A stretch of 25,570 nt of DNA from a virus: positions 1-25,570 of the IMG/VR virus record IMGVR_UViG_3300032053_000464. The stretch is one strand, 5' to 3'. Positions 4,887 through 25,500 of the stretch are shown here, piece after piece. Position 1 is the first letter of the stretch, and each line of letters begins with the position of its first letter. Below the pieces are notes generated by a model, which saw only the letters and a program-made list of their open reading frames with translations, was not told where the DNA came from and ran no database searches. Both the position numbers and the translations under genes were made by a program.

Positions 4887-5036
4887 ACCTCGTAATATAC
4901 TATACTTTCCTCCAAGAGTCCAGTAAAAATGCAAAAAACCTTGCTGATGAGAGATCGCTACCCATGTTGGCAGGCTATTTTATGGGAATCTATCAACAAG
5001 AAATAGATAGGTACTTATACGCAGTGCAAGCATAAA

Positions 5037-5064: not shown

Positions 5065-5086
5065 AGACCAACGACTTAGCTAAAAC

Positions 5087-7013: not shown

Positions 7014-7041
7014 ACAGAACCTCCTATTGGTTTTGCTAAGA

Positions 7042-7073
7042 GCACTCAGCGGATGAATTTCCAATCTGAGCGC
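7042..7073 (-). other. Possible mRNA hairpin in the capsid leader
   Basis: In the 73-nt gap between the decoration-like gene and capsid exon 1, minus-strand GCGCUCAG can pair with CUGAGUGC (8 bp, one G-U) across a 16-nt loop. No U-run follows, so it is not a standard terminator. A processing or stability element is possible. Confidence 0.35.
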
Positions 7074-7086
7074 CCACAAGCATTAT

Positions 7087-7632
7087 TTAGATCCTCATCT
7101 GAACTACCATGAACGGATCCGAAGCAGACGGAGCGATTAGGACGATACCAACGATAATTGAGACAGCGGTTCCAGCAGCAACAGTCGTAAGCAGACCGTT
7201 GACCGAGCTGTACAGAGGAAGACCAGCTGCGTAAGCGATGGTAAGCGCTGCGCCGCCGACTTCTGCCGTCTCGTACAGATCTGTCGAGAACACGGTACCA
7301 GAACCATGGAGGTACGGGCACTTTCCGCTGGCTACGCCAGACGAACTCTCGAACGGATATCCCACTGCATTGTTGATCACGACGCCGAGCGGGTTGCTGG
7401 TAGCATCGCAGGCGACCACGGTACCTGCAACCGAACCTGCCTTGACGATCGAACCAGCCAGGAGACCCTTCGGAGTATTCGCGCTCAAACGGGTATTGGC
7501 CGTCTGCTGAGCGGACGAATAGTTGTTCTGGGTCAGATCTGTGTCGGTCAGATTCATCAACGAGTTCATCGAGACGCGGTAGAGGATGTTTAGGCCTCTG
7601 TCAGGAGCGAGACCACTTGCTTCACCGATCAT
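7087..7632 (-). CDS. Putative capsid decoration (head-stabilisation) protein
   Basis: The 181-residue protein is rich in small residues and predicted beta strands, with repeated hydrophobic Gly/Val/Ala segments (SIVKAGSVAGTVVACDATS, LGVVINNAVGYPF, VGIVLIAPSASDPFMV). It has no charged coiled coil and no enzyme motif. A small beta-rich protein directly before the capsid gene is the usual place for a lambda gpD-like or other cement protein. The ATG at 7632 has a strong GGGAGG 6 nt upstream. The late hydrophobic stretch (TAVSIIVGIVLIAPS) could be taken for a membrane helix but fits a buried strand in this context. The role rests on position and composition, not a recognised family motif. Confidence 0.5.
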   Translation of the reverse strand: MIGEASGLAPDRGLNILYRVSMNSLMNLTDTDLTQNNYSSAQQTANTRLSANTPKGLLAGSIVKAGSVAGTVVACDATSNPLGVVINNAVGYPFESSSGVASGKCPYLHGSGTVFSTDLYETAEVGGAALTIAYAAGLPLYSSVNGLLTTVAAGTAVSIIVGIVLIAPSASDPFMVVQMRI

Positions 7633-7713
7633 GTTAAACCTCCCTTGAATGTTTCTTACCCAATCTCCACCATGGAGCGGGTTACTGGACCAAAAAACAA
7701 TTTAGAAAAAGAC

Positions 7714-7733
7714 GGTGGAGATTTCTCTCCACC
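7714..7733 (-). terminator. Hairpin terminator or attenuator after the repeat-containing scaffold gene
   Basis: An 8-bp stem (GGTGGAGA/TCTCCACC) closes a loop that reads GAAA on the minus strand, a stable GNRA tetraloop. It starts 6 nt after the stop codon of the 7740-8702 gene and is followed by GTCTTTTTC and later a T6 run. No TATTA element precedes the decoration gene, so read-through is probably needed, suggesting partial termination. Confidence 0.65.
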
Positions 7734-7739
7734 AGCCAA

Positions 7740-8702
7740 TTAGAACATGTTGCTCACGTCAGGATCTGTCGCCCACAGACCCTGCAGATCACTGACCTGC
7801 TCAGAAGCCTGCTTCTTCACCATACCAGAGAGCTTTGCAGCGCCCTTCTTGTTTTCGGAAGCAGTCACTTCACCAAAGATCTGGTCGAGGAGCGTACCGT
7901 CAGAAGCCTCAACCTCTTCCTTCTCTTCTTCTACCTTCTCATCTTTCTTAACGGCAGCTGTCTTATCCTCTTCTTCTACTACCTTCTCATCTTTCTTAAC
8001 GGCAGCAGTCTTGTCCTCTTCTTCTACTACCTTCTCATCTTTCTTTACAGCAGCAGTCTTGTCCTCTTCTTCTACTACCTTCTCATCTTTCTTACCAGCG
8101 GTAAGCTCAGTCTCGAGGTCAGCTGCTTCCTTTTTCAGATCCTCAAGCTTCTTCTTCTTATCATCCATAACCTTCTTAGCGGCTTCCTTCTTCTGCTCAT
8201 CTTCCTTATTGCACTTCTTCTCAGCTTCTTCCTGCTCCACAGTTTCACCCTCAGCTTTAGCCTCTTCAGAAGTCTCAGAAGCCTGCTTGGAGATCATCTT
8301 TGCGAGGGATTCCTGGTTCGACAGAGTAGCGTTCAGACCTTCCTCAGGCAGATGCATGAAAATCGCAGCCTGCTTCTCAATCATCTCCTCAGCAGCACCC
8401 GGGAGGATACGCTGAGCAGCGATGATACACTTTACTGCCTTCGCTTCGAGCACTCTGGCGGACGCCACAGCTTCAGCAGCAGCGTGCTTGTCGATGAGAG
8501 GAGCGTGACCAGTACTTTCACGCTTGTGATCGTCGGCTGCCGGATTGGCCGTATTCACATCTTCACCAAATGTCGAGTTAATCGCATACTCACCGATCTT
8601 AGGATCATTGGAGGTATGCTCTGGATTGTTCTGAGCAAAGACATCATTATCGATTGCCTTTGTCTCTCCTGCTACCCGTGTCGTAAGGCGTTCTCTTGAC
8701 AT
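7740..8702 (-). CDS. Putative scaffold / prohead core protein with KKDEKVVEEEDKTAAV repeats
   Basis: The 320-residue protein is extremely charged. Residues ~140-285 are a Glu/Lys coiled-coil-like segment including three copies of the 16-residue unit KKDEKVVEEEDKTAAV and a degenerate fourth. The N-terminal part is more ordinary (MSRERLTTRVAGETK...), and the C terminus ends LWATDPDVSNMF. Charged coiled-coil proteins encoded between the protease and capsid are typically scaffold or internal head proteins that are degraded or expelled during maturation. The gene has a strong GAGGAGG site before its ATG, element C 78 nt upstream, and a hairpin terminator after its stop. The scaffold role is inferred from position and composition. 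Confidence 0.6.
   Translation of the reverse strand: MSRERLTTRVAGETKAIDNDVFAQNNPEHTSNDPKIGEYAINSTFGEDVNTANPAADDHKRESTGHAPLIDKHAAAEAVASARVLEAKAVKCIIAAQRILPGAAEEMIEKQAAIFMHLPEEGLNATLSNQESLAKMISKQASETSEEAKAEGETVEQEEAEKKCNKEDEQKKEAAKKVMDDKKKKLEDLKKEAADLETELTAGKKDEKVVEEEDKTAAVKKDEKVVEEEDKTAAVKKDEKVVEEEDKTAAVKKDEKVEEEKEEVEASDGTLLDQIFGEVTASENKKGAAKLSGMVKKQASEQVSDLQGLWATDPDVSNMF
7932..8095 (-). repeat. 48-bp in-frame tandem repeat
   Basis: The unit beginning TACCTTCTCATCTTTCTTA (plus strand) starts at 7932, 7980, 8028 and 8076, exactly 48 bp apart, with only a few substitutions between copies; the fourth is incomplete. Each unit encodes 16 residues, so copy number can change without shifting frame. 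The near identity suggests recent expansion. Confidence 0.9.
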
Positions 8703-8780
8703 TTCGGTCCTCCTCGTGAAAGATTATTAATTAGGATATAATCGCTAATTAACCGATATTCTATTTCACACTAATTTTAT

Positions 8781-8800
8781 ATATTAATAGGTTATTATGA
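8781..8800 (-). promoter_or_regulatory. TATTA-N6-TATTA element C, upstream of the scaffold gene
   Basis: The plus-strand sequence ATATTAATAGGTTATTATGA keeps both TATTA units of the five-member element. It lies in the 111-nt gap between the protease gene and the repeat-containing scaffold gene, 78 nt before the latter's ATG. The surrounding gap is very A/T rich. Confidence 0.55.
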
Positions 8801-8813
8801 AAGTAGGTCGAAA

Positions 8814-10460
8814 TCATTCGAAATATCGAAGGATTTTGGCCCAGGACGCTATTTTGCTAGCTTCCACTTTTCGAGGTCTTCTACCAGTCTCTACTATTAT
8901 TTCAGTGAATAAAGGTACGAGACCTCCAGACCCTATCTTTACTTTAGCTAGCGCTTTCACGGCGTCCACACCTACAGGATCTTTAGATGCATGCTTATCT
9001 ACGTAATGTAGCAGGCCTAACACATCCTCACGACTATATCCGTATTTCTTGAATTGGTTCCAACTCTTCAAACTAGACAGGATCATGAGACCGTTGTATA
9101 GTCTATCGTTACCTGTCTTTTTCGAAGCCAGAACCACTTTGCTCAATCCAGCCTGTTTCACCAAAGAGCTGTTTGACGCATTCTCCATCTCAGTAGGACG
9201 ACCGCTGTCACCCTGCTCCGTAGCCTGCTCCTTCAACAACTCCCTGCGTATCTGATTTAGGAGTTGTTTCTTTACCATATCCTTCACCTCAGCTACAGTA
9301 GCATCACCCTTAGGCTCTGCTATCTGAGGTTCTGGTGCAGGAGGAGCACCGCCGGGGACTCCCATCTGATCTCCCAACGATCCTGGGGCTGCGGGAGGAG
9401 CTTCAGCAGGAGCTTCTGCGGGAGGAGCCTCGGTAGGCGGGGCTTCTGCGGGAGCACCCTCTGCAGGCGGGGGCGTATCCACCTCTAAAGGCTTCTCAGC
9501 ATCCGCTGGAGCCTCAGGGAATCCTATATCATCTTTGGGAGGGGCGGGAGGAGGAGCTTCTTCACCTGCTGCCTGTATCTCATTTACCACAGAGCGAGCA
9601 GCCTCAGATGCTGCTTTCAGATACATGCCAGGAGCATACTCAAACGATGGGAACGCTATAGCTTTCTGGATCTTCTCGCTCACATCCTGTGATGCAGAAT
9701 CTCCCATGTTGAGGATGTTCCTCAGGACAGCACCCTCAAACGCAGGCTTACGGACCCAGCTGGCATCTATAAACTTACAGCTATCCGGGTCGTCCCTATG
9801 TCCACATATCTCTGCGACTACACGCTTTACACCATTCTCATCATAAAAAGAGTTATTCTTGAAATAGCGTATATGCTTGCACGCTTGAGTCTCATCTTCT
9901 ATCTTTCGTCCACACTGAGAGCATATACTGTACATTATGGAACAGCCCATGCTGACAGCGGCGTATTCACCAGACCCTATCTTATCAACTAAATCTTTAT
10001 GCTTCCTATCGGTAGCTATAAGAATGTCTACATAAAGAGTCGTGAGGTCCTTGCCATCTTTGTCTTTAGTAAAAGGTACGTCTCTCAACGCTACATCAAT
10101 TACTTTACCTTTTGACAAGGCTTCTAGCTGCACGTGTTCGCAGAAATTATCAGCACCCAGGAAAGTCTTAGACGCTTTCCTGAGGAGCTCTCTCTCCCAG
10201 CTATCACCGTTATTGTTCACGAAAATGGAGTACTCAGGCTTGATCAGGTAATCGCTCTTGGGGTCTTTGGGGTCAGCCTGATCTACATCTACAGAAGCCA
10301 TGATCGAGCAGTGCGACAGCAACCATTTAGATGGGTCATACTTAGCTATGACATCTTTAGCCAACTTGATACGTCCTGGGACGACCTTTTTGTCTATCCA
10401 TTTACCGGGGCATACCATGGGTGTAGCTACAGCAGCGTGTCCAAATTTCAATAGGGCCAT
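8814..10460 (-). CDS. Putative capsid maturation (prohead) protease with C-terminal scaffold region
   Basis: The 548-residue protein has an N-terminal domain like phage prohead serine proteases: CEHV (His109) and, 61 residues on, AAVSMGCS (Ser170) fit the conserved His and Ser of the T4 gp21/HK97 gp4-type group, with the intervening KGKVIDVALRDV and LYVDILIATDR strands. A cysteine/histidine-rich insert follows (C180-x2-C183, C194-x-H196, C219, C228), suggesting bound zinc. Residues ~301-385 form a Pro/Ala/Glu linker, then helical segments to the end, as in protease-scaffold fusions where the scaffold is cleaved on maturation. The ATG at 10460 has AAAGGA 8 nt upstream. Its position between portal and capsid fits. 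The catalytic assignment is from motif pattern only. Confidence 0.65.
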   Translation of the reverse strand: MALLKFGHAAVATPMVCPGKWIDKKVVPGRIKLAKDVIAKYDPSKWLLSHCSIMASVDVDQADPKDPKSDYLIKPEYSIFVNNNGDSWERELLRKASKTFLGADNFCEHVQLEALSKGKVIDVALRDVPFTKDKDGKDLTTLYVDILIATDRKHKDLVDKIGSGEYAAVSMGCSIMYSICSQCGRKIEDETQACKHIRYFKNNSFYDENGVKRVVAEICGHRDDPDSCKFIDASWVRKPAFEGAVLRNILNMGDSASQDVSEKIQKAIAFPSFEYAPGMYLKAASEAARSVVNEIQAAGEEAPPPAPPKDDIGFPEAPADAEKPLEVDTPPPAEGAPAEAPPTEAPPAEAPAEAPPAAPGSLGDQMGVPGGAPPAPEPQIAEPKGDATVAEVKDMVKKQLLNQIRRELLKEQATEQGDSGRPTEMENASNSSLVKQAGLSKVVLASKKTGNDRLYNGLMILSSLKSWNQFKKYGYSREDVLGLLHYVDKHASKDPVGVDAVKALAKVKIGSGGLVPLFTEIIVETGRRPRKVEASKIASWAKILRYFE

Positions 10461-10472
10461 TGTGTCGGTCCT

Positions 10473-11030
10473 TTAGGCTTTCTTGACTGCGTAAATCTTA
10501 CTGATAGCTGTACGCATGAATCCATCCGAACACATGTTCTCGTACTGAGGATACAGACTCTGATAGGCCTGGATGTCTGTCATGCCTTTCTCCACGCATG
10601 CTACGACATCACTAGCCAGCTTGTCCACCACGGTACTAGCGAAGCTGCTAGCGACCTTGGTAGCCATACCAGCCAGTTTCACATTCTCTGGGATCTCTTT
10701 AGACACCAGTTTATGAGCCAGCTTTAGGACAGCGTCCCCAGGAGTCCCGTAGCTCTTGTCCGAGATACTCTTGGAGTAGCTGCTATAGCCAGTGTCTTCT
10801 GTGACAGGGGACTGGCCTGTGAATGGGGTAACCATCAAGAGCTCCGACGGATCTCTCTGCTGGTTACCACCATTCTGAAACTCGACCCAGACCTTATTAA
10901 TGCCCGGGCATACCTGCGTCACTACACCCACTTCTGCAGACGCTTCTTTACCAGGGATGAACCACTTTACTTGGTCCCCTACCTTGAAGCTCTCAGCAGC
11001 CGCAGATGGATTAGGATAGATTCCAGGCAT
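10473..11030 (-). CDS. Hypothetical virion-region protein with a KOW/SH3-like N-terminal domain
   Basis: In the 185-residue product, residues ~15-66 (FKVGDQVKWF, GVVTQVCPGINKVWVEF, ending in RDPSELLMV) look like a small KOW or SH3-like beta barrel. The remainder is helical and Ala/Val/Lys rich (KLVSKEIPENVKLAGM...). No enzymatic motif is seen. The ATG at 11030 has AAGGAG 9 nt upstream, overlapping the end of the preceding gene, and the downstream protease gene follows after 12 nt, so it belongs to the head-assembly operon. The function is unknown; a head or scaffold accessory role is inferred from location. Confidence 0.6.
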   Translation of the reverse strand: MPGIYPNPSAAAESFKVGDQVKWFIPGKEASAEVGVVTQVCPGINKVWVEFQNGGNQQRDPSELLMVTPFTGQSPVTEDTGYSSYSKSISDKSYGTPGDAVLKLAHKLVSKEIPENVKLAGMATKVASSFASTVVDKLASDVVACVEKGMTDIQAYQSLYPQYENMCSDGFMRTAISKIYAVKKA

Positions 11031-11043
11031 TATCGTTTACTCC

Positions 11044-12207
11044 TTATTTCTTTACCTGATAGGGCATTGCAGATGCGTCCTTGCCGAGACCCTTAGGATA
11101 CTTGTCCTTCAGCTCGGTAGTGGTATCTGTATTGAACGCAGCCATGTATGACTTCTCGTCAGAGTCACCTTCGCGCATACCGGCCTTGAAGAACTCTTTC
11201 ATGTACTTCTCGTCGGTATCGCTTTCGAGAGTCGCAGCTTCTTTCTTGCCCATGAGCACATCAGACACCTGATCGATCTGATAGGCGATCTTGAACAGCT
11301 CGTAGTCTTTCTGTGACTCCAGGGTGCCAGCGATCTCATCGAGAGACTCCACTATGTTCTCCATAGCAGTCTTCTCTTTCTTGTCGTCCTTCTTGTCTTC
11401 TTTCTTACCACAACCCTGGAAAGGCCAATGCTTCTTAGAGCACTTAGCGCATGTAGGCATTTCTTTAGCCTCTTTATCTGCGCCCTTCTTGTCGTCCTTA
11501 TCTGCGCCTTTTTCGCTCTTGTCGTCCTTCTTATCTTCCTTGTCCTCTGACTTTTCTTTCTTGCCGCAACCCATAAACGGCCAATGCTTCTCACCACACT
11601 TTTTACAGGTAGGCTTCTCTTTGGCCTCTTTGTCCATACCTTCATCACCTGCGAGAGCCTCCAACGCTGCCATCTTGATACGAGTAGCTTCGAGCTCTGC
11701 CAAAATCATTCCCTTATCCATGCGAGCCTCCTTGGTTATTTCCTGTATAGGTTCAGATGATTCTTCCGACGCTTTCTTAGCCTTCTTACCCATCGTATCC
11801 ATGATCAGAGAAAATGTAGATGCATTGACTTTTCCAGCGTACTTCCCACCGTCCTTGGACCCTATCGCACGCTGGAGAGCATCCTCATACGCCACCTTCT
11901 GATCGTACTGTCGGAGAGTGTCATCTACCAAAGAGGACGCGAATACAGCCATCTCACGTAAATCTGTGTCCGTCAGGTCTCCCTGAGTCCGAGGCATGAT
12001 GACATCTTCTTTCTTCGGATCACCACGCGGCACCGATTCCTCAACGATAGTAGTACCATTCTCGTTGCGAAACAGGTTTCGTGCGTTATACATGATCTCA
12101 GGATGCTTAGACAACAGCTGTTTAGCTCTCGCTTTCTCATCACCCTTTTTATCTTTTTCGCCTGGCGATACTTTTAACTCAGGCTTTTTCTTGTCATCTT
12201 TAGCCAT
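11044..12207 (-). CDS. Lys/Glu-rich head-region protein with two CCHC zinc-knuckle-like motifs
   Basis: The 387-residue protein has charged, low-complexity Lys/Asp/Glu segments interrupted by two near-identical motifs, CKKCGEKHWPFMGC (201-214) and CAKCSKKHWPFQGC (253-266). Each has the spacing CX2CX3HX5C. This is the same overall length as a CCHC zinc knuckle, with the histidine shifted by one. The copies lie 52 residues apart, with similar flanks (KEAKEKPT, KEAKEMPT), so they arose by internal duplication. Helical regions flank this part. Its place after the portal and its composition suggest a scaffold or prohead core role; zinc-mediated contact with protein or DNA is inference. The ATG at 12207 has a weak site (GGGG); element D lies upstream. 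Confidence 0.65.
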   Translation of the reverse strand: MAKDDKKKPELKVSPGEKDKKGDEKARAKQLLSKHPEIMYNARNLFRNENGTTIVEESVPRGDPKKEDVIMPRTQGDLTDTDLREMAVFASSLVDDTLRQYDQKVAYEDALQRAIGSKDGGKYAGKVNASTFSLIMDTMGKKAKKASEESSEPIQEITKEARMDKGMILAELEATRIKMAALEALAGDEGMDKEAKEKPTCKKCGEKHWPFMGCGKKEKSEDKEDKKDDKSEKGADKDDKKGADKEAKEMPTCAKCSKKHWPFQGCGKKEDKKDDKKEKTAMENIVESLDEIAGTLESQKDYELFKIAYQIDQVSDVLMGKKEAATLESDTDEKYMKEFFKAGMREGDSDEKSYMAAFNTDTTTELKDKYPKGLGKDASAMPYQVKK

Positions 12208-12253
12208 AGTGTACCCCGGATAATATCTCGGACAGTGATTCGACTTAATTTAT

Positions 12254-12273
12254 TTATTAGAAGAGTATTATGA
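12254..12273 (-). promoter_or_regulatory. TATTA-N6-TATTA element D, upstream of the CCHC-motif gene
   Basis: The plus-strand sequence TTATTAGAAGAGTATTATGA matches the family consensus at all core positions. It sits in the 81-nt gap before the 11044-12207 gene, 46 nt from its ATG. Confidence 0.6.
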
Positions 12274-12288
12274 TCTATTACTATGCTA

Positions 12289-12573
12289 CTAGAATTTCCT
12301 AGATAAGAACTGATCTATAACCTTCTTGGACGACGCAAATCGCTCACTAGTCGAAAACTGTGCTGTGAGCGCGTACTCCAGGTTACTCTTAAAGACTTCC
12401 ATCTTACTTCGTAACTCCAGAGCCTGCTTACGTATCTCACCCAGCGGCTCCACAAAATCTTTACCGTAGTACTCGATCTTGATCTTGTTACCGCCAATGA
12501 CATCATTCAGGCCGTCTATGATCTCCTGGATGGTCATTACCTGCTTGGTTAACTCTCTCGGTGGCTTTGGCAT
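12289..12573 (-). CDS. Hypothetical small helical protein (94 aa)
   Basis: The protein is predominantly alpha-helical (MTIQEIIDGLNDVIG, GEIRKQALELRSKMEVFKSN), with a basic C terminus ending FLSRKF, and no recognised domain. The ATG at 12573 has GAGGAG 8 nt upstream, which also contains the stop region of the preceding gene; the genes are 12 nt apart. It is the last gene before element D. A small assembly factor is possible, but nothing in the sequence proves it. Confidence 0.6.
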   Translation of the reverse strand: MPKPPRELTKQVMTIQEIIDGLNDVIGGNKIKIEYYGKDFVEPLGEIRKQALELRSKMEVFKSNLEYALTAQFSTSERFASSKKVIDQFLSRKF

Positions 12574-12585
12574 TTTACAAACTCC

Positions 12586-12924
12586 TCACACTTTTGGTTT
12601 CTTCACGTATCTAGTACCCACATCATTGCCGTTAGCACGATACTCAGCCTGATACTCATTCCTCTTCTCTTTCCCACCATCCCCACTCCACTCACTCTGA
12701 TAAGCAGGCTGGCGACGCATAGGGCGTAGCTTAGGTCGCTGTGTCATCTCCGTCTCATCCCTCTGCACCTGTACCCTCGGCTTACGTATAGATACCCCAA
12801 GACCCCCAGGCTCCTCACACACCCGCTGACGCCTGAGTAGGATCTCCTCCTCAGTCTCTGGAGTCTCATCTATCACTATCATCTGCGCTATCTTGCGCAG
12901 TACACTCGCTATAGATTTATTCAT
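12586..12924 (-). CDS. Hypothetical basic protein (112 aa)
   Basis: The protein is unusually rich in Arg, Glu and Gln, with a central basic stretch (RKPRVQVQRDETEMTQRPKLRP) and a C-terminal tail ending VKKPKV. It looks largely disordered after a short N-terminal helix (MNKSIASVLRKIAQMIVI). The start at 12924 is 2 nt after the portal stop with little ribosome-site signal, so translation probably depends on coupling to the portal gene. No family was recognised. Confidence 0.55.
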   Translation of the reverse strand: MNKSIASVLRKIAQMIVIDETPETEEEILLRRQRVCEEPGGLGVSIRKPRVQVQRDETEMTQRPKLRPMRRQPAYQSEWSGDGGKEKRNEYQAEYRANGNDVGTRYVKKPKV

Positions 12925-12926
12925 AG

Positions 12927-14852
12927 CTATTTCTTCGCTAAAAACGCCGCTATCTTGTCCATCTTCTCTGGATTCTTCATAGCCATAGTCATGAGCTTAG
13001 TCAAAGCCGCCTGGCGTTTACTATCCATCCCTACAGACGAGAATCTACCCATAGGCGGCGCTCCACCGCCGAGCCCTCCCAGACCTCCACCTGCCTCCTC
13101 ACCCGCCGGAGGCGGAGGGAGTGGGTCGAGCTTGAGGTACTCAGCCATCTTATCCGCAGAGCTATACCCCTCAGCCAGTTTAGTAGCCGTAGCGACATAC
13201 AGGTTCGTCATGAGCTGGTTGAACGCGAAATCGTTCACAGTAAACAGGTCGGCCTCTATCTTCTTACGGGTAGACACTGGGTCTATGTTCAGCATCTCCA
13301 GGATCACATCGATCGAGATAGAGCCCTTGTTGTAGAGCTGCATAGCCTGATCAAAGAACGCATCATTGTCCTTGATAGCCAGACGAGTAAAGCTGAGTTT
13401 CGGATAAATCAGCTTCTCACGACCGTACTTGTCCTTCTCAATGAATCCCTTTTTCTTAGCTACCGGCTTGAACAGGTTATTCTCCACGTACTCCTGGAGC
13501 TGCTCCCTAAACAGCATGTACTGTGTGTTCAGTACCTCCAGCGTGATCCTATTACCAGCGTACGTGCCCTCACCGGTCAGTAGCTCCCGGGTCACTCCCA
13601 GTCCCGCGAACAGGGAGTTCGCTACGTACTCGTGCTCACTGTCGAGCTGCAGCAGACGACCGTTGGAGCCCATTTCCTGCCAGTTTACCTGGTAGTTGGC
13701 TACGATCGAGAAATCAGGGTCCGTCAAAGCCATGTCCACCTGCTCACGGAGGTTCTCTACGTCCGTGTCAGACAGCTCCTCAGCCCACACTACACGCATG
13801 GGAGTCATATGCCGAGACGCGATCGACGTCTGAGCCTGACGTAGCTTGTCATCATACAGGAGGGTGTTTACGCAGCGCTCGAGGATAGATACACCGTAGG
13901 TCTCATACTGGCACTTTTTACGACACAGATAATGTACGTGGGACCCGCTATACGGGTCGGTGTCCAGAGCGATGCTACCGCTCTGTTTTAGCTGTTCCAG
14001 GAGTTTACCCTGTATATGGGGTATCTTTCTCTGCACGTCATCTGATCCGGTGCCATAATAGCTTGGATCCTGGGAGTTCAGGATCGATTTTCTCGTCTCT
14101 GGCTCCGGGATGAACTCTACGATACTCTCATCTGACAGGGGTATTTTCTTCATACGCACCTGATCAGGCGGGAGGATGATAATCTTTCTAAAGCCCTTAT
14201 AGTTAGGGTCTTTATCTATGACCTTAAACTCTTTGTAGAGTCTCTCTGCTTCTGCTTTACCCTTGAGCTTCATTTCCCGTACTTTTTCTTCTCCATCCTC
14301 ATCTGTAACTTCATACGGATCATGGTCTTCAGAGTAGCATGTGCACGAGCCTAGTAACCAGAACTCGTGGCTTATTTCCAGTAGGGTCTTGAAAAGCTTT
14401 ATCTCATCGCACATCTCGGTGAAGAACGCATACACATACTCACACTGCTCTTGGTTCTCACCATGCGGTTTCTCGAGTCGGAGTTTCGAGAGAGGGAGCG
14501 TGGAGTGCAGGTCGATAGCCTGTCCCACGAACTCATTGGAGTGATAAAAATGTCGGTACCAGGCTCTACGTTCACGTTGGTTTTGCGGTTTTTCCAGGAA
14601 GTCCGTGGACAGCTGAGGGGAGTAGAAGTTACCGAACTGGCTGTCCATCGACCCGCCGGAGCTATATCCGGTACCTGCCGCGGTCCTCGTATTAAACCCG
14701 AACGTCGTAGTAGCGTACTTCCTGATTTTTCTGGCCACAATCTCTTTTTCAGTGAGCTTATTGGACACTCGGACATTATCCCCGTTCTTTACCGGGACTA
14801 TCTCCGAAGCTGTCTTTCTTACTGTAGTTCGCATACGTTTTGGTTCTTCCAT
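12927..14852 (-). CDS. Portal protein
   Basis: The 641-residue protein forms the dodecameric DNA-entry vertex of the head. It shows portal features of large myoviruses: a FYSPQLSTDFLEKPQ segment near the N terminus, RAWYRHFYHSNEFVGQAIDL, a core with IIILPPDQVRMKKI, a segment VSILERCVNTLLYDDKLRQ, then LLTGEGTYAGNRITLEVLN followed by YMLFREQLQEYVENNLF, the familiar stem/clip-proximal helices. The C-terminal ~60 residues contain a Pro/Gly-rich stretch (DPLPPPPAGEEAGGGLGG) before a final basic helix. Length is normal for this group. The ATG at 14852 follows AGAGAAG. It stands between the terminase-related genes and the protease and scaffold genes, the canonical order. Confidence 0.9.
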   Translation of the reverse strand: MEEPKRMRTTVRKTASEIVPVKNGDNVRVSNKLTEKEIVARKIRKYATTTFGFNTRTAAGTGYSSGGSMDSQFGNFYSPQLSTDFLEKPQNQRERRAWYRHFYHSNEFVGQAIDLHSTLPLSKLRLEKPHGENQEQCEYVYAFFTEMCDEIKLFKTLLEISHEFWLLGSCTCYSEDHDPYEVTDEDGEEKVREMKLKGKAEAERLYKEFKVIDKDPNYKGFRKIIILPPDQVRMKKIPLSDESIVEFIPEPETRKSILNSQDPSYYGTGSDDVQRKIPHIQGKLLEQLKQSGSIALDTDPYSGSHVHYLCRKKCQYETYGVSILERCVNTLLYDDKLRQAQTSIASRHMTPMRVVWAEELSDTDVENLREQVDMALTDPDFSIVANYQVNWQEMGSNGRLLQLDSEHEYVANSLFAGLGVTRELLTGEGTYAGNRITLEVLNTQYMLFREQLQEYVENNLFKPVAKKKGFIEKDKYGREKLIYPKLSFTRLAIKDNDAFFDQAMQLYNKGSISIDVILEMLNIDPVSTRKKIEADLFTVNDFAFNQLMTNLYVATATKLAEGYSSADKMAEYLKLDPLPPPPAGEEAGGGLGGLGGGAPPMGRFSSVGMDSKRQAALTKLMTMAMKNPEKMDKIAAFLAKK

Positions 14853-14879
14853 GTTCTTCTCTACTCGCTATGTGATATG

Positions 14880-15206
14880 TTATTTGGGGGCGTCTGACAG
14901 GAGCTCTTCCAGCTCTTTATCCAACACCTCTTCTTCAGTGATCTCAAACCCATCTACTGCACGCATTCTCTTCAGGAGAGCGTATGCGTTTTTCACTGCT
15001 ATATGGTTCTTCTTCACGGAATTACTGAGTGCGTAGAAATCTTCGAGGCCGCTGGTAGCTCCTGCGTTCTTCGTGTACTCATCCCTAAAGCGCTCTGTCA
15101 CGGACCCCTCAAACTCCCCGTACATCTTGATGAGAGTGTCAAGGTCTTTCAGGATTTTACCGCGGAGAGTAGTAGCGTCTCGTGTAATTTGATTTAGATC
15201 TGCCAT
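14880..15206 (-). CDS. Hypothetical coiled-coil protein (108 aa)
   Basis: The sequence is almost entirely helical, with heptad-like segments (ATTLRGKILKDLDTLIKMY, NAYALLKRM) and an acidic tail (ITEEEVLDKELEELLSD). It has no enzyme motif. It lies directly upstream of the portal gene with a 27-nt gap and has GAGAGGG about 12 nt before its ATG at 15206. Small coiled-coil proteins beside the terminase and portal can be small terminase subunits, but no DNA-binding motif was recognised here, so that is only a possibility. Confidence 0.6.
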   Translation of the reverse strand: MADLNQITRDATTLRGKILKDLDTLIKMYGEFEGSVTERFRDEYTKNAGATSGLEDFYALSNSVKKNHIAVKNAYALLKRMRAVDGFEITEEEVLDKELEELLSDAPK

Positions 15207-15224
15207 GTGTTATGTGGGCCCTCT

Positions 15225-15419
15225 CTAATCAGGTATTGTGTTCTTGTCCTGACAGCGGACCAGTTTCAGGACATTCATAATCATTTTTGAGTTCGGCAAA
15301 GAGGACTGAGAGTCTGGGTCTATAGGATCTTGGTCTCCATTCTCTCCGCGGGTTTTATATTGGTTTTCCCTATAACCCGCTTCCTGCTTGTCGTCCTCAA
15401 AATTCAATTCACCTGGCAT
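15225..15419 (-). CDS. Hypothetical protein (64 aa)
   Basis: The product is polar and probably disordered in its first two thirds (MPGELNFEDDKQEAGYREN), followed by a short hydrophobic helix (KMIMNVLKLVRCQ). The ATG at 15419 follows AGAGG with 9-nt spacing, inside the end of the preceding gene. The tight tiling with both neighbours supports it as real. No family was recognised. Confidence 0.5.
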   Translation of the reverse strand: MPGELNFEDDKQEAGYRENQYKTRGENGDQDPIDPDSQSSLPNSKMIMNVLKLVRCQDKNTIPD

Positions 15420-15422
15420 GTA

Positions 15423-15608
15423 TTAAGGCCTCTTGATGACTTCTATACCTGGTGGCAGTGCGCTCTCGGCTTTCGCCGCTACGGTATTCTTCAGGACCTC
15501 GAGTACGAATCTCGATTTCTCGTACTCGATTTCTTTTTGTTTATTCGCGTAGAATGAGATGCGCTCGTCGTACTCAGCGAGCCTACATTGATATTCCATG
15601 GAGTTCAT
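15423..15608 (-). CDS. Hypothetical small helical protein (61 aa)
   Basis: The first ~45 residues form one charged helix (RLAEYDERISFYANKQKEIE), and the protein ends in PPGIEVIKRP. No known domain was recognised. The start at 15608 has no strong ribosome site; a second ATG four codons in is also possible. It lies between the terminase-nuclease paralogue and the next small gene, with gaps of 20 and 3 nt, in the same transcription direction. Confidence 0.5.
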   Translation of the reverse strand: MNSMEYQCRLAEYDERISFYANKQKEIEYEKSRFVLEVLKNTVAAKAESALPPGIEVIKRP

Positions 15609-15628
15609 GACAGAGCGGCCCCGATATG

Positions 15629-16240
15629 TTATCTGCTAATGTGTGCCGTATAGACCATTCGTGCAAAACTATCCGTCAAATCGTCGTGCCCACCTACGGG
15701 TGCTACTGCATATCGAGCGGCTGGGTCTATCACTAGATTTTGCAACTCTTCTGTTAAATCTGACACAGGCATGCGTAAAAGACCCTTACTCAGGTAGCTG
15801 TCCAGCACAGAGAACATCTCGGTATTCAGAGCTTGGGTAAAATGCTTGAAAGAGATGTTTTTAAACCCTTTTTTCTTCATAGCTGGCACAGCTGTGAGTC
15901 CATAGTATTGGTCTGTTAATCCAGACTGGATGTTGTATCTGCGAGCCCACATACACACCCAATCGGCTATCTCTTCTATCTCAAAAAACGCTCTATTCTC
16001 GTTTCTCGCGTATCGTACTGTAGACACGTCTATCTCTAACTTCTTTACTGGATTATCCTTTATGAACTCTGTCACCCAGTGGCCTATAGTTACTGCAGTG
16101 CCATCATTTTTCAATCCGATATCCAGACCCATAAAATGGGGCACTAGCTTGTCCTGACTTCTGTCAAAAGCACTTCCTGTTACGAGGCTCTTGTCGAGGA
16201 CTTTTGAGTTTTCAATCCATTTAGACGGCACCGCAACCAT
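15629..16240 (-). CDS. Stand-alone terminase large-subunit nuclease domain (TerL paralogue)
   Basis: The 203-residue protein matches the C-terminal RNase H-like nuclease domain of the terminase encoded at 22533-25570, including the identical segment GLKNDGTAVTIGHWV and the shared DQYYG and GHDDL-x-DS-x-ARMV. Putative metal ligands Asp40 (GLDIG), Asp110 (LTDQYYG) and Asp186/187 (GHDDL) are all kept. There is no ATPase domain. The similarity begins at the terminase position GWIDDASIV (KWIENSKVL here), so the gene starts at the domain boundary. An ATG at 16240 follows AGGGGG. It has its own upstream element E. It should be a folded, probably active nuclease; whether it helps packaging, resolves replication junctions or attacks other DNA is unknown. 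Confidence 0.88.
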   Translation of the reverse strand: MVAVPSKWIENSKVLDKSLVTGSAFDRSQDKLVPHFMGLDIGLKNDGTAVTIGHWVTEFIKDNPVKKLEIDVSTVRYARNENRAFFEIEEIADWVCMWARRYNIQSGLTDQYYGLTAVPAMKKKGFKNISFKHFTQALNTEMFSVLDSYLSKGLLRMPVSDLTEELQNLVIDPAARYAVAPVGGHDDLTDSFARMVYTAHISR

Positions 16241-16261
16241 ACAGACCCCCTGTTATATGTG

Positions 16262-16275
16262 ATATGGATATAGCA
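16262..16275 (-). repeat. 14-bp leader block shared with 810-823
   Basis: TGCTATATCCATAT on the minus strand is an exact copy of the block upstream of the metallopeptidase gene. It lies 18 nt downstream of element E and 21 nt before the terminase-nuclease paralogue ATG. Confidence 0.6.
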
Positions 16276-16293
16276 TTACCTGTTAATCAGATA

Positions 16294-16313
16294 TTATTAG
16301 TAGACTATTATGG
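16294..16313 (-). promoter_or_regulatory. TATTA-N6-TATTA element E, upstream of the TerL paralogue
   Basis: The plus-strand sequence TTATTAGTAGACTATTATGG keeps both TATTA units, with 11-bp periodicity. It lies 53 nt before the ATG of the terminase-nuclease paralogue, in the divergent region between minus-strand and plus-strand genes. Confidence 0.6.
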
Positions 16314-16391
16314 ATGGTGTTTGTGGACCGGGAGCTACGGAGATATTTTGAGGGGGAGAGGGACCCGAGCAAGAACTGCTTCAAAAAAGCC

Positions 16392-16420
16392 TTGATTCTT
16401 ACGTTATACAAAGGTATATT
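16392..16420 (+). promoter_or_regulatory. Sigma70-type promoter of the plus-strand island
   Basis: TTGATT (16392-16397) and TATATT (16415-16420) are separated by 17 bp. The site is followed by AATAGTA. It lies about 30 nt before the ribosome site of the 168-residue protein. The same arrangement occurs at 17360-17388, which strengthens both. Confidence 0.7.
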
Positions 16421-16464
16421 AATAGTACGGTCAATATCCACAATCCTACCGGAGTATGTTTATC

Positions 16465-16971
16465 ATGGTGAAGAAAGAAATGGTTACAAGGACTATCGAA
16501 AGCTTTATCAGGCAGCTAAAAAAAGACGGCCACGATAAATACGCGTCTGAGCTGCGGACTATCGTGGCTATGTCTCGAAACAGGAAAGAAGCCCTTTCAG
16601 CCCTCTCCAATATGACTATCACGCTACTCGAGCACATTATCAAGTACGTGACTATGCCGCAGTCATTAAACAGGGACAAATGGCGCAGGGAGATACGAGG
16701 CTATCTAAACAGGTTCAACATACGCAACAAGAGCCCAAAAAGTCAGCCCTGGCTAACTATAGAGTACATACAGGCTGATTTGAACGATGTGCTGTCTAGC
16801 GCTAGCTTTTTGATAGACATGAAAGAAGTGCTGAGTGAATATTCGGATACAGAGGCAGAGAATGCTACGAATCTCCTGAAAACGCACAAAACTCTCAAAA
16901 GTTTAGGCATAAAACTATTCTACGACGAGGACAGTAACCTCATTGTAGATATAGGCGGACAAGCCTTGTAG
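16465..16971 (+). CDS. Hypothetical protein of the plus-strand island (168 aa)
   Basis: The protein is helical and basic in its first 110 residues (RTIESFIRQLKKDGHDKYA, LLEHIIKYVTMPQSLNRDKW), followed by a more acidic C-terminal part ending LIVDIGGQAL. The HIIKY-x10-W-x3-I arrangement is faintly reminiscent of DUF29-type proteins, too weak for an assignment. GGAG lies 10 nt before the chosen ATG at 16465; an ATG at 16456 is only 1 nt from GGAG and is less likely. A sigma70-type promoter precedes it, and the next gene starts 12 nt after its stop. It is transcribed against the virion operons, suggesting early or independent expression. Confidence 0.65.
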   Translation: MVKKEMVTRTIESFIRQLKKDGHDKYASELRTIVAMSRNRKEALSALSNMTITLLEHIIKYVTMPQSLNRDKWRREIRGYLNRFNIRNKSPKSQPWLTIEYIQADLNDVLSSASFLIDMKEVLSEYSDTEAENATNLLKTHKTLKSLGIKLFYDEDSNLIVDIGGQAL

Positions 16972-16983
16972 AATAGGTGACCT

Positions 16984-17343
16984 ATGAATGAAAAAGAAGA
17001 TCTTTCTTACAGAGAAAAACGGGAAGCAGAGCTTCTCCACCTGACTACACAACAGATCGTCGACACAATCAGGGCTCGATTCTCTAAAGACATCGGGCAG
17101 GCTGTCACAAGCAAATCCGTAATCAGGACTTTCCTCACTGAGGCTATAATAGACACGGATTTTGACTGTCACGAAATAGATGAAGATTACAGAAAAAAAC
17201 GAGTAACAGAGCTCTCCGTTTTAACGCACCAACAGCTCATCGACACCATCAAAGCTCGGCATGTTAAAAACACCGGGTGTGATATGTCAGATGAGTTCAT
17301 AATAAAAAGCCTGTTGATCCAAACTGTCATAGACACGGACTAG
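16984..17343 (+). CDS. Hypothetical two-repeat protein (119 aa)
   Basis: The protein is an internal duplication. Residues ~9-59 (YREKREAELLHLTTQQIVDT ... TEAIIDTD) and ~69-119 (YRKKRVTELSVLTHQQLIDT ... IQTVIDTD) align along their whole length, each about 51 residues and each ending in IDTD. Each unit looks like a small helical domain, possibly DNA-binding. The ATG follows AGGTGA and lies 12 nt after the preceding stop, so the two genes form one transcript from the promoter at 16392. No family was recognised. Confidence 0.65.
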   Translation: MNEKEDLSYREKREAELLHLTTQQIVDTIRARFSKDIGQAVTSKSVIRTFLTEAIIDTDFDCHEIDEDYRKKRVTELSVLTHQQLIDTIKARHVKNTGCDMSDEFIIKSLLIQTVIDTD

Positions 17344-17359
17344 TGACCAAAAATAGTAC

Positions 17360-17388
17360 TTGATTCCGACATTCCATAAAAGTATATT
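17360..17388 (+). promoter_or_regulatory. Sigma70-type promoter of the LamG-like gene
   Basis: TTGATT (17360-17365) and TATATT (17383-17388) are 17 bp apart and followed by AGTAGTG, closely matching the promoter at 16392-16420. It starts 17 nt after the stop of the preceding gene and drives the secreted LamG-like gene separately. Confidence 0.72.
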
Positions 17389-17437
17389 AGTAGTGAGCAG
17401 ACAGAATCGGGCACATCAAACTCAGAGGAGGTAGATG

Positions 17438-18325
17438 ATGGGTAGACTGACGAAGACGATGGCGATGATCGCGGTGCTGGCAGGGATTTTGATGGCGCAG
17501 GTTCCCGTGGATGGGCTGATCGCCTTTTACCCACTCACTGGGAACCTCCTGGATGCCAGCGGGAACGGACACAAACTCGATTCACTGCACACCTCTGACC
17601 AAAGGGGCATACCTAAGTGGGTAAATGACCGTATGGGTGTCGCCAACCGAGCAGATTCTTTCCCTGGCACAACTTGTGGGCTCTACACTCCAGCAGACTC
17701 TTTCCCTACAGGTTCGTCCGCCCGGACTATCTCAGCGTGGGTAAAACTCGCTTCTCTTTCCCAACCCAGAACGATTGTAGCCTGGGGAGACAAAGCTAAT
17801 AAAACAGAGTGCTCATTCCTTGCTCTTTCTACCGGTGGCTTTGATTATCTTATATTCACCAACGGTACAGATAGCCTCAAGCACAAAACAACCTCACTGG
17901 CAAAGATCCGATCATGGACACACCTGGCCGTCTCCCTCACAAGCGCAGGCAGCGCTGTATTGTACATGGACGACTCAGCCCTTGTATCCAAACAGATGTC
18001 GAACTGGAACACATCCGCAGGATGGTTCGGTGTAGGCGCATGGTTCGTAAGCTCGTCTTCACCAAATGACAACTGGTCTGGGTGCATCGACGCAATAGCT
18101 ATTTATAAACGTGCCCTGACTGCCACGGAAATAACCGTGCTAGCAAACAACACCACAGACCAACTCATACCTACAGTGGTATCTGTACCAAGTGTACACT
18201 ATGTCACTACACGATCAGAAGTATCAAACATGTTGTACACAATCAACGGTAGGACAACCAAGAACGAATCTGTAGCAGGATTGCTCGTAGGCGCTGGGTT
18301 TAAGAAAACTCTACGAATACAGTAA
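17438..18325 (+). CDS. Secreted LamG/concanavalin-like protein with a possible T9SS-type C-terminal tail
   Basis: The 295-residue protein begins with a signal peptide: basic MGRLTKT, hydrophobic MAMIAVLAGILMA, with likely cleavage near Ala20. Residues ~25-215 form a LamG/concanavalin A-like jellyroll (GLIAFYPLTGNLLDASGNG, RSWTHLAVSLTSAGSAVLYM, CIDAIAIYKRALTATEI), usually a carbohydrate-binding fold. The last ~35 residues (MLYTINGRTTKN, then VAGLLVGAGFKKTLRIQ) resemble type IX secretion C-terminal sorting domains (LYDxxGR ... GVYxVxxxxKKxxV). Signal plus tail would place it on the surface of a Bacteroidota or Fibrobacterota host. GGAGG is 6 nt before the second ATG (17438), preferred over 17435. 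It has its own promoter and terminator, like a moron. The T9SS reading is the uncertain part. Confidence 0.72.
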   Translation: MGRLTKTMAMIAVLAGILMAQVPVDGLIAFYPLTGNLLDASGNGHKLDSLHTSDQRGIPKWVNDRMGVANRADSFPGTTCGLYTPADSFPTGSSARTISAWVKLASLSQPRTIVAWGDKANKTECSFLALSTGGFDYLIFTNGTDSLKHKTTSLAKIRSWTHLAVSLTSAGSAVLYMDDSALVSKQMSNWNTSAGWFGVGAWFVSSSSPNDNWSGCIDAIAIYKRALTATEITVLANNTTDQLIPTVVSVPSVHYVTTRSEVSNMLYTINGRTTKNESVAGLLVGAGFKKTLRIQ

Positions 18326-18334
18326 TACAAAAAA

Positions 18335-18360
18335 GGTATAGAGCTATAGTGCTCTATACC
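18335..18360. terminator. Bidirectional terminator between convergent genes
   Basis: A perfect 10-bp stem (GGTATAGAGC/GCTCTATACC) closes a 6-nt loop. On the minus strand it is followed by TTTTTT and serves the 18377-22510 gene. On the plus strand it follows the LamG-like gene by 9 nt and is followed by CTTAATTCTTTT. Confidence 0.85.
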
Positions 18361-18376
18361 CTTAATTCTTTTACTA

Positions 18377-21300
18377 TTATCCCTGGAAATAGGAGATATA
18401 CGTTTTCCCGGTTAAATTACCCAATTCCTCGCTTCCATCAGGCAACAATACCACATCTAAACTCCACACGCCTGTATAAATCTTGTTGTCCCCTGCGCCG
18501 CTCGTAGTTCTACTCTGACTAATGAGCCTGGGATATATTGCTGCTTTCCAGGCAGACGGACTAGCCGTCTGGTCAAACACAGCGCTGGTTTGGTCATAAA
18601 AATCTACGATATTCAGTTTAGGAGATCTATCCTCCCACCGATAAAACGGTGCTATAGATTCATAAGCGGTATTAGGCTGACCACCCTTGCACACTGCAGT
18701 CCATTTTGATAGAGGTATGTATAAATGTAGACACTGATCTACTCTGTGCATTTTAGTGTCAGACTCTGATACCTTCGTGTTAATAATGTTAGCCTCTATC
18801 CGCACTACAAAATTATCAGAGTTGGTTACAGCACTCCCAGGCATCCAATCAATAGTAGCTCCACCATCTACATTCCTGAAATAGTTAGACGTGAATTTGT
18901 AGCTCTGAGCTACTGAACTGATAGGTACTATTGTATCCACAACTCCAGATCCAGGTCTATACCCAGTCCACGTCATCGTGAGTTGACCCAGACTGCACAC
19001 CCGAATGCGTTCACACTTGTATCGCTGATACTGAGGCAACGTGATAGCAGTCACGTCGACAGTATCTGGAGTGCTATCAACAGTCCCCACGATAGCGTCA
19101 AACTCTTTCTCTAAAATACCTATGTTATCAAACGCCCAACGAGCCACAACGGCACCCTGATTATACGGATCAGCATACCCGTTATATATATGTTCGATAA
19201 AATAATTCTGATAAAGATCTGTATAAACTAGTACGCCCAACTCAGACCCGTTGCTCAACAATACCCTCTGCGTACTCGTGAACTCCTTCGTCCTGAGAAT
19301 ATTCCCGGGATTCTTGTTCTGAGAATAATCTTCCCCAGCCACTCCACCCGCTAACACCCTACCTAAAGCCGTAATGTTCGAAGGGTCCGTAATGCTCAGA
19401 GGAGCCTCTGGCACGTCCGTACCCGTGAACTCAATCGCCTTCACTCTCAACGTATCACTAATCAACGCTTTCCCGTTCACTTGCAACTTGTAGTCCGTGT
19501 CCAACACGGGGATGTTACCAGCACCCAGGTAATTCGCTGAGAAATACCGGTCAGTGACCAGGTCTCCCTTGATACGCAAACTCGCCGTACGCTCATTGCC
19601 CAAACCATCCGAAGCGTCTATCACCACTTCCGTGAACCGGTCCGCCTCTGTAAATAGAGACGAGGTAGGACGATTATCTACCAAATGTATCCCGTAGTCC
19701 GTCAAAGGCCCACCAATACGTGCAGACACAGCACTATCTCTTACACTGGTCTGCTTGATAGTCCCCAGCGTAGTGACCGAAGAGTCCGCGTCACGTACCT
19801 CAAGACTCCTGGACAGCAACATACCTTTGATGTACAACAGCAGATCCGAGTAATTTACCGTGTCTTTCAACTTGTCATTCATCTCAGCCAACGAACCGCT
19901 ACCCAAAGCCAATCCACCCGCTATCTCAGTCTGCCCTACGATATTGACATTCTTGCGCACAAACAGACTCTGCACGTTCGCCAGATTAAAGAACTGCTGG
20001 TCAGAGAACAAGGTCCCATAGATGAACACGTCATTGCGGAACATCACGTTCGGGCTGAACGTGACCCTATTGGACAAACCGTTCCCGTTGAAAAACACGT
20101 CACCGTTGAACAACCAGCCGTCCGCACCCTCACCGAGATCCAGCTTCGCGAACTTCACGTTAGTGATCGATCCACCATAATCCACAGCACCGTAGTACGA
20201 CCCCGCTGTGAACGTAATACTCACAGGCAAAGACAACAGGCGTGTCACCGTGAACGAAGACACCACGTCCAACGCCACATGAATAGGATCCTCAGGCATG
20301 TCCTTGAGGATTATCTTCCCATCATCCATCGGGTATACCGGTGTAATACTGTGAGCTATGTCATAGTCATGCTGAGCATGTCCAAGCGGGTCTGTCAAAA
20401 TCTGCACACCGTACGCCACTCCATCGTGCATGAGCGTAGGAGTACCGTCAATCTCGTAGAAGATGTAGTCGAAACCAGTACGGGTATACCCAGCCGGGAA
20501 ATCTCCGTTGGCGAGTATGTCCTGCCGTACCTCCTCAACACCTGCCATACCGCCCGCAGTCACTGTCACGCTCCCAGTGACATGTACTCCACCCTCCAGA
20601 GCTATATCATAGGTCACCGTATCCCCAGCCTGTATCTCACCTAAATCTGTCACACCGTCATGGATATCCAACAAGCTCACATCAGACGTAAGTGCCTTGC
20701 GCAAAGACGTACCATACAGACTCATCACTGTACGATCGAAATCATCTCCGAGGTCACCGATCGTAAACATCCTCTTACCTTCGGAGTCATAGCACTCATA
20801 CTGACCCGCAGCTGCCATACCCGTGTAACCATAAGCCGTGATACCCGTCTCACCTGATACCGCTATACCACGCTTGAATACCACCGCAGCGATAGACCCT
20901 GTGATACCCGCGAACTGTGCGTGATGTATCCCCGTGAACCCAAACAGCGCAGGATTCTGGTCTGATAGTGCCGCGGGAATCTTCCAAGACTGACCGTGTA
21001 TCTCCCCACTCACATACATGTCTTTATCAGCAAACACATGGTCCGTCAAACGGAGAGATCCATTAATCTCCTGTACAATGTTGACGCCCGTCTCACCGTG
21101 CAAACCATCATTGTACCGATCGGTATTCTCCCACGCCAAAGGCTGATCCCACCCAGGCCTGAACGTATTGAGACCGATACGACCCGCATAATCCACCACA
21201 AAAAAGTTTTGCTGCTGTCCACCCTGCACAGACCTCACATACACCGTCTTAGAGCCCGTCACACCATCCATATTCATGACAGAGAATCCACTACGACCTG

Positions 21301-22532: not shown

Positions 22533-25500
22533 CTATCTGAATCGACCACCGAGCGCTGACATTCCCATGTTCATACGCCCACTCATCCTCCCACCCAGCC
22601 TACCACCCATCATACCAGCCCTACCCGAGGTAGGCCTGTTCAGGCTCACTTTCATCATCTCAGACCGTCGTATCATCCTCGCCGCATGCACCAGGGACGT
22701 AGCGGCTCCACCAGCCACCATAGTCGAGTACGATTTACTCTTGTGCTCGTGGGCTAGAAACACCATACGAGCGAGACTATCACTGAGGTCATCATGCTCC
22801 CCTTTTCTATCGGGGGCAGACACCTTGATCATGTATTTCGATTTCTGCTCCGCCTGCAGAGTCAGGAGCTCTGTCACCAGGTCGGAGTCATTTACCCTAC
22901 TACCTTCGAGCTGTCTGACCTCTCCTGCCGGGAGCCTGATTGCACTGGATATGAAATCCGTCATCAGCACTTGATACACGGCTGAGTTGAGCTGATCATT
23001 GAACTGTCTAAACTCAAACTGCTTATAGCCCTTCTTGTGCAGGTATGGCACGAGAGTCATGCCATAGTATTGGTCCATCAGGGCTTTTTGTACATAGAAC
23101 TTATCACAGAACGTAGCCATCCAGTCAGCCATCTCATCAGGCACAAAGTAATCTTTGCCCTCAGACTCTGCGCTCCTCACGATAGACTGATCTACCTCGA
23201 GTCTGTCCACCTTGAGTCCGTTCACGACATCCTCTACCCAGTGCCCTATAGTCACCGCGGTACCGTCGTTTTTGAGTCCCACGTCGATCCCCATGAAATG
23301 AGGTACTCGTAGAGAGCTTCTTTCTTTGTATTTCAGATTCGCTATGATATTCTGACGTACGATAGACGCGTCATCGATCCACCCGAACATTCTATCACTG
23401 AACTGCGCTCCAAACTCAGACTTGAAAGAAATCGGATTCTCTCTAAACTTATTCTTCAGATACTGTGTAGCTATACTGGAGTCGATCTCCCATGTAGGGG
23501 CTTGCATCATGAATAGATCATTATCGGGCTCGAACGATCTCTCAAACTCCTCATAGAACTTTCCGCTCTTAGCTCCAGGAGACGAGATACAGATCACCTT
23601 ACCGTCTGGTGTACCATCTTTTCTCTTGAATTTAGCTACAGACGGAGTCACGGCTTTATAAATAGCCTTGTCGTTTTTGTCCTTGTTAGACTCCGCGTCT
23701 TTGTTCTTCTCGTCAGCGAAAAAGAACGCCATCTCGTCCAGTACCACGATCATGTTGTTAGATCCGCGGGTACCTTTAGCACTACACGGAGCTACACGGA
23801 TAGATAGGGATGATCGTCCTTTGAGCCCGTACTTATCTATATCTCTCTGAGTCCTCAAATAAATCCACTGCGCCGTGGGTTTGTTACGATACTTTCTGAA
23901 AAACTCCGAGCGCTCTATATGTCCAGTGACCATATTAAATAGTTCGCTGGCGGTCTCTCTACTCGTGGATAGACACGTGACGCGTATGTCCTGCTCAGGC
24001 ATGATACCATAGTATTCCTGAGGGCAATATTTATTGAGTAATTTATACGCTTCGTAGGCTATAATGCTTGACGTAATTGTTGTGTTATGATTTACCACGC
24101 CGTTTGCTACGAAAGACTCCCCGTCCGGCACATTCAAGTCGTACACCTTCGATCTACCCGCAGATACATCTACTATCTCATCAAAAAAATAGTTTGACTC
24201 TATTATAGATTCGAAATGCTCTATGTATACAGGGTCCGCCCCGGACGTTTTAGCTAAAGAAACAGCCTCTTTTATCCTGGGATATGACAGATTCTCTCCT
24301 GAGTTTTTAATCACGTTACCCAATGCTAACCGAAGCAAGCCATGGTACCCAGTTCTACAGACTTTGCTGTTCTTCTGTACCGTACTCAATAATCTATTGC
24401 ACCAATCTTTCTGGTAAGGTATAGACTCTGTAGCGCTCTTGTTCTGTGTGTATCCTAGTTCAAAATAACCTTTTAAAATACTCTGCTTTCTGTTACTGAT
24501 AAATCCGATATTTTTATAGAACAAGCGGGCCGACTCAGCCCCTATCAAAGTCATATGATAGTATGTCTTATTAAACTTTTTGTTCAGTCTCGGTTTTACC
24601 CGGCTCACTATACCAAAGCTCAGCAGCAACAACTGTAACTCTTGGGCTAACTTTTTGCTAGCGGTAGAGAAAGATATTACTCTGCCTTTTGCTTCTGCAC
24701 AACCGTCTGTTTCAAACAGCCCTCTCAAGAAAGCTGCCACCACTGGTTTAGGAGAGCGCCAGATAATCCACGGTATCCGTTTCTCATCACTCTTTGCTTT
24801 TAGTGTATACCCTATACGGTTAAAAAACTCCCGTACAGCAGTAGAGTAAAAAGCTACCCTATAAATATCTCTGGTCTTCTGGTACATCACTGCAGGCTCA
24901 CCTACAGTGTCCGTGAAAATAGTACACACCTGGCTCAGCCACTCAGCGTAATGACCTACGGTAACCGCTATATACCCTCTCTCCCCCCACGTGCCGTCCC
25001 CTACCAGAACTCCCAGCAACGTAGCCCATTTATCATCAAAACTATCTGGCAAAATTATATCTTTTCTTCCACCTACATCTTTTTTGTACTCAGAAGTATC
25101 GAACAGAGCCCCAGGCCACATATCTGTCCTACGGTGGACACCAAGTATCTCCCCCGTCTTTATGTCACCCAAATATCTCCACTGAATAACTCCGTCCGTA
25201 CCCATTACCTTAACTCTATGGTTTGGAGTACCTTCAATCTCATAGCCGTTCCAGGTACGGATCCTGATAGTATCTCTCTCTCCTCCGTTGTAGAAAAAAG
25301 CCGAGACAGCCTGTCGGGTACCCTCCTGGGCTACAGTCACTTTCAACGGTTGGTATTCAGGCCCGTTAGGATCACCCAGATCCTGTATCTCCCTGAAACC
25401 GCCGCCTGTGTTTACATAGGTTCCCTCTGCCACACACTTCCCCGACCTTCTCCCGAGTACGAGCACCAAGTTCGGGTACGATGTTCCTACCTCGTACGGT

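Follow-up and report, generated by a model that had tools for sequence, protein, structure and literature searches.

A free-standing paralogue of the terminase nuclease domain opens the portal/head gene run of a large uncultured phage

The stretch of DNA analysed here (the window), a viral record, comprises 25,570 bp and comes from a large, uncultured phage. A 203-residue ORF lies on its minus strand at 15629–16240, with its ATG at 16240 and its stop ending at 15629, as the preliminary description had placed it, and is preceded by the Shine-Dalgarno-like sequence AACAGGGGGTCTGT (16241–16260, minus strand). BLASTP with the window's own terminase large subunit (TerL), an AF2 model and a match to a PDB structure identify the product as a free-standing paralogue of the TerL nuclease domain. 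The window's TerL and the ORF are identical at 82 of 211 positions (39% identity, E 2e-51), and alignment of 14 TerLs with the free copy gives identities of 33–42%. This homology excludes chance resemblance and bears out the earlier claim of a free-standing domain duplicate. Because it begins at a W-I pair directly after the TerL linker, the start does fall exactly at the domain boundary, as had been proposed. The block of 15 identical residues that was first noticed is also real (GLKNDGTAVTIGHWV, residues 42–56 of the free copy). Of the 20 identical residues in the 24-residue stretch around it, not counting M and W, 14 are encoded by different codons, which rules out that the block was duplicated or gene-converted recently.

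The frame extends only four codons above the ATG before reaching a stop (207 residues from stop to stop). An ATPase (Walker A/B) is absent from both the ORF and this upstream frame, and a tblastn search with the whole TerL found no further convincing TerL remnant in the window, in agreement with the initial view that the protein has no ATPase. No Pfam family, the RuvC profile included, matched the free protein at E 0.01; the nuclease domain of the window's TerL was likewise unmatched in Pfam, and PDB sequence searches returned nothing useful. The gene is not an assembly chimera or accident, because G001, another assembly of this phage (74.8 kb, overlapping window positions 1–19407), carries it unchanged at the same place, within a segment (5632–19407) that is 99.76% identical between the two.

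The full terminase is encoded at 22533–25570 on the minus strand, with its N-terminus beyond the contig end; alignments and a structural model place its nuclease domain at 22749–23402. Its Walker A motif is interrupted by a 451-residue intein with a LAGLIDADG domain (GRRSGK|C...HN|TT; 24084–25436, minus strand), recognized by Pfam intein and LAGLIDADG matches, by its borders and by comparison with the L011 TerL, which has no intein. The intein looks competent for splicing, and its C-terminal junction is identical in L012 and L014. Walker B, the three aspartates and the HDD motif are present as well, and TerL is therefore complete if the intein splices. The free protein thus does not supply a half that a split terminase lacks, a possibility that would have required the terminase copy to be non-functional. 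In a related locus (L093, 5498–7646), two ORFs match only the TerL ATPase profile, and the same locus has a TerL with a nuclease domain.

The acidic active-site residues reported at the outset are all present in the free copy and make up the metal-binding triad: D40 (16121–16123, minus strand), D110 in the LxDQYYG motif (15911–15913, minus strand) and D187 in the third acidic motif, H185-D186-D187 (15680–15688, minus strand). Each of these aspartates is conserved in 75 of 75 comparable rows and H185 in 72. By motif order and fold, D40 probably corresponds to D294 of the G20c terminase. The AF2 model of the free copy (pLDDT 87.5) has a TerL-nuclease fold, and its best PDB structure match by Foldseek is the nuclease of phage G20c TerL (E 2e-9), with TM scores of 0.67–0.70 for the best G20c entries and 0.40–0.45 for RuvC.

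Three parts of the TerL nuclease region are missing or reduced. The first is a stretch of otherwise fixed length that adjoins the active site: the conserved aromatic Y and HDD are separated by 7 residues in the free copy, whereas the distance is 12 in 73 of the 74 further terminases that can be compared and 10 in the last, so that five residues before HDD are gone. This loss reduces TerL strands at model residues 182–194 (22818–22856, minus strand) to bridges in the free-copy model. From their place before HDD, we infer that these strands are probably the terminase β9/β10 hairpin and loop L3; by this equivalence the auxiliary β-hairpin has lost most of its strands in the free copy, along with the shortening before HDD. 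The β9/β10 hairpin has been described as terminase-specific and as lying near modelled DNA (PMC5389553). The second is a small hairpin (TerL model residues 162–169; 22893–22916, minus strand), absent from the free copy in a region that varies in the wider family, with short spacing in eight other rows too. The third is the basic C-terminal tail of TerL (70 residues, pI 12.0; 22536–22748, minus strand), which is also absent; assembly of D6E TerL on the portal is proposed to be mediated by its C-terminal arm (PMC5727402). In other systems, parts like those lost here have been linked to contact with DNA or to assembling the motor, and the free copy is probably not doing TerL's job. The original label of a second headful nuclease is not supported, given the loss of the basic tail, the family hairpin and five active-site-proximal residues. 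Since those five residues adjoin the third aspartate, activity could also be impaired.

The nuclease gene is the first of a portal/head gene run. It is followed on the minus strand by s61, a 61-residue ORF with no match in phage records (15423–15608), by s64 (MPGEL...; 15225–15419) and s108 (14880–15206), two small genes conserved before the portal in relatives, and by the portal gene (12927–14852; PHROG portal, E 1e-34), with successive gaps of 20, 3, 18 and 27 nt. The order in the related records L011 and L143 is TerL, a long tail-like gene, a LamG gene on the other strand, a small ribbon-helix-helix gene, s64, s108 and portal, and that in L018 is similar. The slot of the ribbon-helix-helix gene in these three records holds the nuclease gene and s61 in the window, where a ribbon-helix-helix relative sits at 855–1040 instead. 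In our searches, neither of the neighbours p171 and s61 had a relative beyond this phage. The LamG/concanavalin-like protein (17435–18325, plus strand) has a signal-like N-terminus, and its place is conserved in L011, L018 and L143.

In several relatives, genes are split: the portal at about residues 153–186 in L143, L144/L053 and L145/L017, and a 548-residue gene (p548) at about residue 107 in L122, L143 and L145; splits at such similar residues suggest introns or inserted endonucleases. At 5087–7050 (minus strand), a 226-residue frame is 87–93% identical in relatives whose portals are 58–71% identical, and is preceded, across an endonuclease-like gene (5946–6857), by a short possible N-terminal piece. 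This segment, which has no Rfam match at the gathering threshold, may be a capsid gene that an intron interrupts. An 886-residue protein at 2274–4934 (minus strand) combines LAGLIDADG endonuclease and DNA methylase-like domains and has relatives in L122, L144 and L145.

A phage promoter-like motif (TAATAGTCTACTAATA; 16295–16310, minus strand) stands in perfect form ∼55 nt ahead of the ATG of the nuclease gene. Across 81 kb (window plus G001), the motif TAATANTCTNNTAATA with at most one mismatch occurs before gene starts 12 times in the sense and never in the antisense orientation, against a shuffled expectation of 0.225 on average and 1 at most; two of the 12 sites overlap antisense ORFs. The sites in the window are at 842–857, 1085–1100, 8782–8797, 12255–12270 and 16295–16310 (minus strand), and the motif is also found in L011, L143, L017, L065 and L067. 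The promoter-like element described for this gene therefore exists, as a phage-specific motif and not a sigma-70 consensus; a sigma-70 scan of the minus strand gave no site for the nuclease gene. Because the motif precedes the ribbon-helix-helix gene in L011 and L143, the nuclease most likely uses an existing promoter of the head gene run, and the position of that promoter points to late activity. A different type of promoter, TTGATT-17-TATATT, occurs in two perfect plus-strand copies before p171 and the LamG gene (16392–16420 and 17360–17388).

Among the terminase-bearing loci collected from IMG/VR, a nuclease-only ORF was found solely in this phage. When 50 related records were searched whole (records of 183, 259 and 470 kb included), none of the other 49 contained a second TerL nuclease copy, an absence that is not proof because many of the records are fragments; in three of the 50, one nuclease domain lies in two pieces within one frame. 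A scan of genome contigs found only one TerL relative. A second nuclease of this kind is thus unusual, as had been supposed, and none that stands free of its TerL was described in the papers covered by our literature search. Phylogeny had been proposed as a check on the origin of the gene. In a 77-row tree, the free copy forms a group with L011 and its own TerL (97/85), and its terminal branch, at 1.71, is some six times the 0.28 of TerL. This best tree agrees with duplication, and trees that hold the terminases together with the free copy outside are not rejected (AU p 0.125–0.33), so that partial duplication within this lineage is the preferred history among those that fit. As read from these sequences, the gene is best explained as a partial duplicate of the terminase gene that would have arisen in this lineage or a close one.

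The divergence of the free copy is patterned. Against the 14 sampled terminases, it keeps 31 of 41 invariant residues and 28 of 115 variable ones. It has changed the other 10 invariant residues; the terminases themselves retain nearly all. Codon usage favours its frame, and when neutral drift of the TerL domain to 45% identity was simulated, the frame stayed open in only 2 of 400 runs. The gene, of which no orthologue was found, is known from one phage only; the patterned conservation and the open frame indicate that the copy is probably under selection. We conclude that the free copy is real, selected and unusual, a known domain in changed form.

What might such a protein do? We see an even chance that it is a motor-free, late-made accessory packaging nuclease derived from the TerL domain and acting in trans by RuvC-like two-metal cutting. 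A partial duplicate of the terminase gene would have come to lead the portal/head gene run, and its protein would be made late, together with the head proteins. It would cut DNA by the two-metal mechanism and, acting in trans, would remove branches or ends from concatemers or at heads that are full; it would not be the motor-coupled headful cutter. Homology, the kept active site and the confidently predicted TerL-nuclease fold together favour a nuclease. The perfect, strand-specific motif, which also precedes head-region genes, and the tight spacing to the portal point to late expression, and the missing C-terminal tail and shortened stretch before HDD suggest a protein freed from the motor. 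Of the roles first suggested, packaging or genome processing is favoured over an attack on competitors by the place in the head run and the shared motif. Separate nucleases do serve packaging in T4, where EndoVII associates with the portal (PMC3012670) and the DNase activity of gp4 is required for packaging (PMC7824862). Against the accessory nuclease stand the 10 changed invariant residues, the loss beside the third aspartate, and relatives that package without such a copy.

Because that loss adjoins the active site, there is also room for a non-cutting protein. A non- or weakly catalytic regulator that binds DNA, TerL or the portal and so modulates packaging would account for the fast divergence, the lost invariant residues and the shortened active-site-proximal stretch, and has a precedent in phi29, where a vestigial nuclease keeps DNA binding without cutting (PMC7672431). 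However, with ∼60% of its residues differing from TerL, the protein still has its three metal-binding aspartates and the histidine of HDD, and we consider a regulator unlikely. Slightly less probable is a Holliday-junction or branch resolvase working on packaging-stalled concatemers. The domain belongs to the RuvC-like fold family, the hairpin reported as terminase-specific is reduced, the 75-kb contig G001 of this phage contains no RuvC or EndoVII match, and T4 EndoVII offers a precedent at the portal (PMC3012670). The predicted fold is nonetheless nearer to TerL nucleases than to RuvC by the TM scores given above. A pure resolvase is further lowered by the separate RuvC found in relatives (4 of 8 records searched), a comparison to be read with the incomplete genome of this phage in mind.

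Phages in general use nucleases against host or competitor DNA. The free copy could likewise degrade host DNA or attack competing phages or satellites, and T4 gp17 endonuclease is indeed sequence-nonspecific (PMC3012670), but the gene sits in the head gene run, defence-system models gave no match and the sparing of the phage's own DNA would go unexplained, so we regard this role as improbable. That the gene is a decaying, untranslated remnant of a duplicated terminase is very improbable: the long branch, the shortening at both ends and the restriction to one phage fit decay, but the open frame, ribosome site, perfect promoter-like motif and patterned conservation argue against it, as does the absence of an ATPase remnant nearby.

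Compared with known systems, the free copy is like the nuclease domains of G20c TerL (PDB 5m1f), T4 gp17 and SPP1 G2P in its predicted fold and its D...D...HDD set, and differs from them in being a separate gene without the ATPase and C-terminal tail; its stretch before HDD is five residues shorter than even in its own family. The closest named relatives of the window's TerL, from the uncultured huge phage LR745208.1 (485 kb; also the closest named relative of the portal, 48%) and Tunturiibacter phage Tunturi_5 (308 kb), come from phages with a single terminase nuclease and no free copy. RuvC resolvases share the RNase H-like fold and two-metal chemistry, although the structural match is weaker and no Pfam RuvC match was found here. 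T4 gp4, a head-completion nuclease, and EndoVII (gp49) provide a working analogy of a separate late nuclease aiding packaging; the fold of EndoVII is unrelated to that of the free copy. T4 gp4 is unrelated too, with an REase fold (PMC7824862). The C-terminal vestigial nuclease of phi29 gp16 (PMC7672431) is, as here, a repurposed terminase nuclease domain, but it is inactive and lies within the ATPase, whereas the free copy is separate and keeps its active-site residues.

Tentatively, and with somewhat less than even confidence, we propose that a packaging nuclease stripped of its ATPase and motor-docking parts may have become an enzyme in its own right, made late, that processes DNA and acts on a new substrate, while the original stayed intact. 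To our knowledge, how TerL nucleases are restrained to cutting at initiation and at the full head is not settled. A natural, selected, motor-free copy that lacks a defined set of parts, beside its intact parent in the same genome, offers a comparison between the parts that tie the nuclease to the motor and those that cutting requires, and suggests that a packaging nuclease can come loose from its motor and be put to another use.
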